Source of the DNA: Fictibacillus macauensis ZFHKF-1 | Lineage (GTDB): Bacteria > Bacillota > Bacilli > Bacillales > Fictibacillaceae | NCBI RefSeq assembly: GCF_000269865.1 | Contig: NZ_AKKV01000021.1 | Location: forward strand, 1-64,000 | DNA: 64,000 nucleotides | Reading direction: 5' to 3' | In this document: positions 22,578-23,736 of the stretch, piece after piece | Numbering within the stretch: the stretch's first letter is position 1 | How the letters are laid out: every line of letters starts with the position of its first letter | The notes under the pieces: model-generated | Told to the model about the DNA's origin: nothing | Databases searched by the model: none | The model's input: the letters and a program-made list of their open reading frames with translations, nothing else | Made by a program: the position numbers and the translations under genes

Positions 22578-23324
22578 TTACGAAGACATACGATTTAAAA
22601 TCACCGTCTGAACAATCGCAATCACATTTCCAACAATCCAATACATTGGCAGCACCGCAAATAAGTTCCAGGATGATACAACAATAATGAGCGGCATAAT
22701 GTAACCCATCATTTTTAATTGCGGATTCATTTCGTTCATTGATGCATTCATCACTTTTTGCTGCACAAACGTTGTTAGTGCGGCAATGATCGGAAGGAGG
22801 TGAAGAGAATCAGGATGTCCAAGTTGAAACCATAAAAAGCTATGCACGCCAATTTCCGGTGTGCGAATAATGGCATAATAGAAAGCTATGAGTATAGGCA
22901 TTTGTATGAGCAGTGGTAGACAGCCCATCGAAATAGGATTTACCTTGTGCTGCTGATACAGGTGCATCATTTCTTGTTGAAGCTTTCGCTGTGTTTCGCG
23001 ATCCTTACTGCTGTAGGTTTCTCGTAGCTTTACAATTTCAGGTTGCAATTCTTTCATTTTCTGTTGCTTTTTTTTCGAGTAGAGTGCTACTGGAATAAGC
23101 AATAAGCGAATGACAACAGTCAATAAGATAATAGCTAGTCCATACTCTCCTGAAAAATAACGAGCCACATGTCTAATGAGCCAAGAGAGTGGATAAACAA
23201 AATAGTGACTCCAAATGCCTGTACTATGTTCATCAACAGGTGCTCTACTGCACCCCGCAAGTACTACGATTCCTATCAATAAAAGCCATAACCGACCGTT
23301 TCGTGTGAGTCCTAATCGTTTCAA
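22578..23324 (-). CDS. yidC2: Membrane insertase YidC2 (YqjG type)
   Basis: A 248-residue lipoprotein insertase: signal ending VVLAGC (Cys25), five transmembrane segments, and the conserved hydrophilic groove Arg in TVVIRLLLIP; cytoplasmic loop KKKQQKMKELQPEI precedes the second helix. It inserts membrane proteins alone or with SecYEG. The start is TTG at 23324, seven bases after AAGGAGG, and that ribosome site is locked in a hairpin (23332-23376). A MifM-like leader frame runs through it, matching the B. subtilis mifM-yidC2 arrangement where YidC2 is induced when insertase activity falls. Distinguishing it from SpoIIIJ rests on that context. Confidence 0.88.
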   Translation of the reverse strand: MKRLGLTRNGRLWLLLIGIVVLAGCSRAPVDEHSTGIWSHYFVYPLSWLIRHVARYFSGEYGLAIILLTVVIRLLLIPVALYSKKKQQKMKELQPEIVKLRETYSSKDRETQRKLQQEMMHLYQQHKVNPISMGCLPLLIQMPILIAFYYAIIRTPEIGVHSFLWFQLGHPDSLHLLPIIAALTTFVQQKVMNASMNEMNPQLKMMGYIMPLIIVVSSWNLFAVLPMYWIVGNVIAIVQTVILNRMSS

Positions 23325-23610
23325 TATTGTTCCTCCTTGATTGTTTTGTAACATGACAAACAACCAAAGAAGAAGGACCTTCACAATCGTCGGGTGATAT
23401 TTTGTTATATTTACAATACATAATTCCTGTTCGCAAAAAATAAAACGACGTGAACGGTTGTCGCTTATTTTGCTTGTTTACGATCAATTGGGAATTTTCA
23501 AGTTGTAGATTCTGAGCTGAGATCAACGTCGGCATCTCTTTTGCAAAATGCTTACCGACGCTTATTAAAAGAACCGAAAACAACATGGAGACTAACAACA
23601 ATTCAGGCAT
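23245..23610 (-). CDS. MifM-like translational-arrest leader (candidate)
   Basis: An open frame directly upstream of yidC2. From the ATG at 23610 it encodes 121 residues: a membrane segment (LLLVSMLFSVLLISVG, 4-19), a polar middle, an aromatic stretch FTSFYFLR, then YNKISPDDCEGPS (68-80), an acidic cluster. It continues through the yidC2 ribosome site and 80 bases into yidC2. B. subtilis MifM likewise has an N-terminal membrane segment and stalls at a C-terminal acidic cluster just before a hairpin masking yidC2. The start is uncertain: GAGGAGG (23631-23637) is 20 bases before this ATG; an in-frame GTG is inside it. Homology is not shown, only architecture. Confidence 0.6.
   Translation of the reverse strand: MPELLLVSMLFSVLLISVGKHFAKEMPTLISAQNLQLENSQLIVNKQNKRQPFTSFYFLRTGIMYCKYNKISPDDCEGPSSLVVCHVTKQSRRNNIETIRTHTKRSVMAFIDRNRSTCGVQ
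23332..23376 (-). promoter_or_regulatory. Hairpin masking the yidC2 ribosome site
   Basis: On the minus-strand RNA, CCUUCUU (23370-23376) pairs with AAGGAGG (23332-23338) and GGUUGUUU (23358-23365) with AAACAAUC (23339-23346): 15 pairs with two G-U, a 4-base bulge and an 11-base loop. It fully covers the yidC2 ribosome site and begins just after the acidic codons of the leader frame. Confidence 0.75.
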
Positions 23611-23696
23611 GAACCATTCGATAGGACTCACCTCCTCAATGCTTAGTATACTACATTTCTTGATTTGTGAAAAACGCATACGTAAGTTCATAAAAA

Positions 23697-23736
23697 AAAG
23701 ACGGCGCTCCCATCAGGGAAACACCGTCTTTTTTCA
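23697..23736. terminator. Orphan terminator-like hairpin
   Basis: AAAGACGG / CCGTCTTT with A/T tracts on both sides. It lies between divergent genes (leader ORF and SASP), so neither annotated gene needs it. Confidence 0.7.

Follow-up and report, generated by a model that had tools for sequence, protein, structure and literature searches.

A diverged MifM-type leader predicted to control yidC2 in Fictibacillus

The region directly upstream of yidC2 in the window, a 64,000-nucleotide stretch of the Fictibacillus macauensis ZFHKF-1 genome, is very probably a diverged mifM ortholog, predicted from its sequence to control yidC2 through stalling. MifM of Bacillus subtilis also bears the name YqzJ, and the window leader is a fast-evolving relative of it. 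By sequence, the leader encodes a conserved protein with a membrane helix, a spacer of about 57 residues and an acidic PDD patch. Homology, spacing, conservation of codons up to the acidic motif and a genus-wide hairpin that hides the yidC2 Shine-Dalgarno sequence (SD) together support a MifM-type arrest leader that monitors YidC. The class of YidC sensors is already known; the new features of this diverged ortholog are a probable AUC start and a layout with no stop codon ahead of yidC2.

The leader frame is open from well above position 23640 and its stop codon ends at 23245 on the minus strand; its product begins with a hydrophobic segment, followed by FLRTGIMYCKYNKISPDDCEG. The initial annotation had described this frame correctly, from the hydrophobic N-terminus through YNKISPDDCEG to the stop ending at 23245; it numbered DDCE as codons 74-77, which become 78-81 when counted from the ATC at 23622. 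The predicted helix has a hydropathy of 2.20, a value reached by 0.95% of 2000 peptide shuffles. A promoter consensus scan returned two sites in the region against 1.8 expected, so the leader promoter candidate is a weak one. Above the leader promoter region, a GC-rich inverted repeat between A and T runs (23693-23735) is terminator-like on the minus strand.

Table 1. Features of the leader and yidC2 in the window.
Feature	Position	Strand	Basis or remark
Possible leader promoter (TTTTCA, 17 nt, TATACT)	23645..23673	-	consensus scan only
Leader SD (GAGGAGGTGA)	23628..23637	-	same register in 7/7 genus genomes
Rival GUG start, in frame, within the leader SD	23629..23631	-	
Probable AUC start of the leader, 8 nt past GGAGG	23620..23622	-	ATC in 7/7 genus genomes
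Predicted membrane helix, leader codons 4-22	23557..23613	-	hydropathy
Arrest-region candidate, codons 62-82 (FLRTGIMYCKYNKISPDDCEG)	23377..23439	-	relatives' alignment, order-leader profile match, codon constraint in six relatives
PDD of the arrest-region candidate	23394-23386	-	
Hairpin sequestering the yidC2 SD	23330..23374	-	folding, shuffles, pair changes
yidC2 SD, AAGGAGG	23332..23338	-	
Leader/yidC2 overlap, 80 nt; leader stop 23247-23245	23245..23324	-	
yidC2, target gene, TTG start 23324	22578..23324	-	spare YidC insertase, lipoprotein-type signal

The yidC2 product matches Pfam 60KD_IMP with an E-value of 1.8e-50, and its identification draws on NCBIfam as well. The genome holds only one other yidC, 52% identical to the window copy and preceded, on reading, by an rnpA-like frame; the window copy is thus the spare one, YidC2. 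The leader adjoins this secondary yidC directly upstream and on the same strand, as members of the MifM family do. Its predicted helix precedes a cytosolic stretch longer than 30 residues, with 57 residues between helix and acidic patch as placed by hydropathy only. For the patch itself, a published screen asks for a position between residues 70 and 100 and a local charge below -0.3 in five residues (PMC10987492); by hand count, D78, D79 and E81 give PDDCE a charge of -3/5.

Conservation of the leader and its codons

The leader frame lies intact upstream of yidC2 in all seven Fictibacillus genomes (the window and six others), in keeping with the initial annotation, and the leader is likewise present in 10 genomes of a sister genus. 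A profile of the leader matches 17 of the 34 genomes of the family at E <1e-29, exactly the 17 that hold this yidC2; as 15 of them contributed to the profile, the informative part of this result is the absence of the leader from the other 17. Two sister-genus genomes carry a short second YidC that is 37% identical to that of the window (G028, C1:427907-428524; G030, C2:521760-522380), and neither has a convincing MifM-like leader match. A scan of named genomes gave at least 13 loci, at least five of them in Fictibacillus.

The leader profile by itself yielded poorly when run against the order. Among 19 loci inspected outside the family (L089-L107), three had a yidC: L100 and L106 are leaders, and L091 has no leader frame on reading. 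Sampling was therefore done through yidC2 positions, taking, in genomes hand-chosen among those listed for the order, the region that precedes whichever yidC copy scored lower. An automatic rule found an acidic leader in 77 of the 90 regions of this sample. Eight regions gave no candidate frame (L117, L133, L138, L163, L177, L182, L185, L191) and five more were discarded, being either rnpA or weakly acidic (L140, L156, L157, L170, L172). By eye, L117, L156, L157, L170 and L191 are leader-like though dropped; L156 overlaps yidC2 by 55 nt. At L138, L163 and L177, all of family f41, the second yidC has a normal SD and no acidic leader frame by the rules used; some other control, or none, may act there. 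Six yidC2 copies (L150, L173, L181, L182, L183 and L212) have an N-terminus, as called, without the lipoprotein signal of the others.

Compared by HHalign, the 17 Fictibacillaceae leaders match the 77 order leaders with a probability of 97.1% over 26 columns of the arrest region, a relationship that runs through the order leaders, B. subtilis MifM itself lying outside this comparison. The spacing agrees as well: in the order leaders the yidC2 start lies a median of 67 nt (IQR 65-71) beyond the beginning of the acidic cluster, and the first Asp codon of PDD in the window (23391) lies 67 nt ahead of the yidC2 TTG. Together with the codon constraint and the hairpin described below, these matches uphold the proposal that the frame is a diverged MifM-like leader. 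The B. subtilis arrest motif RIxxWIxxxxxMNxxxxDEED is found in 0 of 94 leaders, window included, and so is a mark of B. subtilis-type MifM, not of the family at large. Having neither this motif nor a stop ahead of yidC2, the window leader stands outside the strict B. subtilis-type form of MifM. It also lacks a Trp present in 37 of the 94 leaders and a basic patch present in 76 of them. No curated family for the leader exists in Pfam or NCBIfam, its profile has no sequence match among solved structures, and Rfam gives only three sub-threshold matches, far under their gathering scores and pointing to no known RNA element.

The codon pattern was read from the six genus relatives, with the window excluded; the column counts share the history of these six genomes and so are not independent. 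At codon positions 1, 2 and 3, variable columns number 8, 0 and 21 of 34 each in codons 1-34, 9, 11 and 21 of 26 each in codons 35-60, and 4, 4 and 17 of 27 each in codons 61-87. The excess at position 3 is marked in all three blocks (one-sided Fisher P = 3e-7, 4e-4 and 2e-5, respectively). From codon 88 to the SD the counts are 5, 5 and 5 of 14, 14 and 13 (P = 0.57). In the overlap the variation fits the yidC2 frame only (6, 5 and 15 of 30 each), with P = 0.98 when read in the leader frame. The frame is thus no chance opening: the leader protein is under selection as far as the acidic motif but no further, as expected of an arrest peptide, and the constraint takes in both helix and arrest region. 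Codon-level conservation ending at the acidic motif had been anticipated, and in the six relatives, the window's branch lying outside the set, constraint indeed stops just past PDD.

Occlusion of the yidC2 SD and its predicted release

The stretch just past the acidic codons pairs with the yidC2 SD. The hairpin at 23374-23330 has a folding energy of -19.3 kcal/mol (z = -2.34), which five of 200 dinucleotide shuffles match, and leaves AAGGAGG with a P(unpaired) of 0.00, so the hiding of this site proposed at the outset holds. The same value of 0.00 is found in all six Fictibacillus genomes of the folding set, which comprises the window and every relative but L004. When the upstream part is base-shuffled 500 times, 0.2% of shuffles hide the SD as well in the window, and at most 0.2% in any of the six. 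Three sister-genus genomes have P(unpaired) values of 0.04-0.11, reached by 1.2-5.4% of shuffles. Across the order the SD is hidden (P <0.2) in 63 of the 77 leaders, and 52 hide it no worse than 95% of 100 shuffles do.

The 13 hairpin pairs, compared over seven genomes, comprise six that are invariant, three with one-sided changes, two with two-sided changes and two that depart only by unpaired cells; each pair-change measure is reached by seven of 500 shuffles, for a structure that is itself derived from these sequences. As to the covariation looked for, the register is kept and two pairs are double-changed between the window and its relatives; as the double changes separate the window from the relatives, they reflect few events.

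By analogy with MifM, we propose that when YidC activity is low the helix would fail to insert and the ribosome would stall while the acidic residues occupy the peptidyl-transferase centre. The footprint of the stalled ribosome, whose 3' edge is set 16 nt beyond the P-site codon, would then cover the anti-SD arm of the hairpin, freeing the SD for translation of yidC2. With sufficient YidC, insertion of the helix would release the stall, and the hairpin would refold and turn yidC2 off. Removing the part under the stalled ribosome from the fold raises the accessibility of the SD to 0.50-0.82 in the window and to 0.22-0.76 in five relatives (lowest in L007), so the predicted release is partial. 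This partial release, and the 14 of 77 order leaders in which the SD is not hidden in the fold, count against the stalling model.

Plain translational coupling, in which the ribosome that translates a small membrane protein opens the hairpin and so allows yidC2 to be read with no regulated stalling, has in its favour that the hairpin lies in the reading path of the leader, where any translating ribosome would open it. Such coupling is nevertheless quite improbable: the amino acids of the arrest region are under strong constraint in the relatives, with none after it, the distance from acidic cluster to yidC2 is fixed across the order, and the leader co-occurs with a second yidC. A different objection concerns the window species only, where the leader might be a decaying remnant of one that still works in the relatives. 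The window leader is only 19-27% identical to its relatives, whereas the window yidC2 is 62-64% identical to the copies of three genus relatives, and the missing basic patch is present in all six genus relatives. Given this low identity and the absence of the Trp, the basic patch and the B. subtilis motif, the window leader might arrest weakly or be decaying. Against decay, the frame, PDD, helix, SD, hairpin and 56-nt distance from PDD to SD are all intact, and we consider a mere remnant hardly probable.

Start codon of the leader and its overlap with yidC2

The leader probably starts at an AUC codon. In all seven genus genomes an ATC stands 8 nt past GGAGG or GGGGG as the only well-spaced start, and the sole ATG, GTG or TTG near the leader SD is a GTG inside it, a point absent from the initial annotation. 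This ATC aligns with the ATG start of a sister-genus leader (L009), and the two lie equally far from PDD (codon 83 in each). Counted from the ATC, codons 1-10 of the six relatives show 40 synonymous and 14 other pair differences, with 2, 0 and 5 variable columns at codon positions 1, 2 and 3; varying mostly synonymously, they indicate that translation begins at or above the ATC. Initiation at a non-AUG codon is expected to be weak and IF3-sensitive, and this would probably apply to the AUC here, even behind its strong SD.

Two other codons were considered and rejected. Above the ATG at -286 (codon 5 in the window, 11 in the relatives) the codons vary mostly synonymously, and the sole SD-like match before it is a GTGA at 4 nt. 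The TTG at -340 (L006-L008) is preceded by AAGGAG but lies partly within the presumed -10 box and lacks conservation, L003-L005 having an in-frame stop there. By a loose rule, which asks for an SD match of at least 4 bases lying 3-14 nt before an ATG, GTG or TTG, 92 of 94 leaders have a usual start, the exceptions being the window and L116, and this counts against the AUC; a still looser version gives 89 of 94. The six genus relatives pass the loose rule only via the ATG at -286 and, in three of them, the TTG at -340.

It is possible, if rather unlikely, that the same sensor starts instead at the in-frame GUG inside the SD (23631), three codons above the AUC, which would then be an ordinary Ile codon, and the start not unusual. 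The GTG is in frame in all seven genus genomes, and the sole change in codons -3 to -1 of the six relatives is a synonymous Pro change. Genus g18 of family f15 bears on both readings. There an ATC stands 5 nt past GGTGA in L212 and L213, with an ATG in its place in L214 and an ACG in L181; L181 keeps the buried GTG, and its ACG either speaks for that codon or means that the species has no working start. Arguing the other way, the GTG has no SD of its own, since the sole strong SD overlaps it (aligned spacing 0, versus 8 nt for the ATC); the ATC aligns with the ATG start of L009; and where GGTGA serves as the SD with a 5-nt spacer, a GTG falls in frame automatically.

No stop codon precedes yidC2 in any of the seven genus genomes, and the leader overlaps it by 80, 89 or 104 nt, always in the same frame. 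The window overlap, in a frame other than that of yidC2, is exactly 80 nt, as the initial annotation gave it. Ribosomes released from the stall would meet no stop and would continue, out of the yidC2 frame, across the SD, start codon and first 80-104 nt of that gene. One may ask whether the overlap is a selected lock, these ribosomes tightening the off state as they cross the yidC2 start. For such a lock speak the missing stops and constant frame in 7/7 genomes, the 56-nt distance from PDD to SD found in all of them, and the overlaps of 11 to 131 nt in 13 of 77 order leaders, from 11 families outside Fictibacillaceae. However, given the frame, 45-70% of synonymous shuffles of yidC2 yield an overlap of the observed length or more, codon-pair differences in the overlap read in the leader frame are 15 synonymous and 132 not, and in 64 of the 77 order leaders the stop lies ahead of the yidC2 start codon. 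Selection on the overlap is thus unsupported by synonymous simulation and codon patterns, and we regard a lock as unlikely. With no sign of selection on its length or amino acids, and with its recurrence in 13/77, the overlap is probably tolerated rather than functional. As to the suggestion that readthrough could clash with YidC2 translation, the overlap is real as anatomy, but its length is that expected by chance in this frame. Overlapping leaders of other families in the sample, among them L115, L121, L122, L129, L132, L165, L192, L196 and others, reach 37 to 95 nt into yidC2.

An AUC start, with weak and IF3-dependent initiation that gene callers are likely to overlook, joined genus-wide to a leader that lacks a stop and whose released ribosomes tighten the off state, would give the sensor two additional set points; this combination is doubtful. 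Within it, the AUC start would have arisen at least twice, in Fictibacillus and in the genus of family f15, which is equally doubtful.

Comparison with known arrest leaders

B. subtilis MifM, the leader of yidC2 (yqjG), combines a membrane helix at its N-terminus with an acidic arrest patch in its C-terminal part and a stem-loop that hides the SD (PMC6037786, PMC4423224), and the window leader, likewise a yidC2 leader, has the same three elements. The distance from helix to acidic patch is 57 residues in the window against a published MifM median of 54 (PMC10987492). MifM stalls with D89 to S92 in the P-site, in dependence on DEED (PMC4423224), and the stall is described as released by YidC-dependent insertion, and opening of the hairpin is described too (PMC6037786, PMC13183943). 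In contrast to MifM, the window leader is without the motif RIxxWIxxxxxMNxxxxDEED (PMC7897499). The 95-codon frame of MifM ends a few codons past the stall and its stem-loop is described as intergenic (PMC6037786), whereas the window leader has no stop before yidC2. In the portions seen of the open-access full-text literature, we found neither an AUC start nor a stop-less overlap described for mifM.

With these leaders, the range of the best-studied YidC sensor widens to sequences that lack the arrest residues of B. subtilis, and natural variants become available for finding out how much of the nascent chain is truly required. Should the AUC start prove real, it would add a rare conserved start other than AUG, GUG or UUG, and possibly link initiation fidelity to membrane-insertion capacity. 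Screens that rely on annotated upstream genes, as that of PMC10987492 does, could then miss such leaders.

CliM, found in Clostridia upstream of a yidC, shares the logic of a YidC-monitoring arrest peptide, and its stem-loop spans the yidC2 start together with the 3' end of its leader (PMC13183943). It is reported to have no sequence similarity to known arrest peptides (PMC13183943), and its likeness to the window leader is one of description only. Other arrest motifs are used by ApcA, the actinobacterial yidC2 leader, SecM and VemP, and the latter two act on other targets; compared likewise by description only, all three follow the same logic of monitored arrest upstream of a localisation gene, yidC2 for ApcA, secA for SecM and secDF2 for VemP (PMC7897499, PMC10987492).
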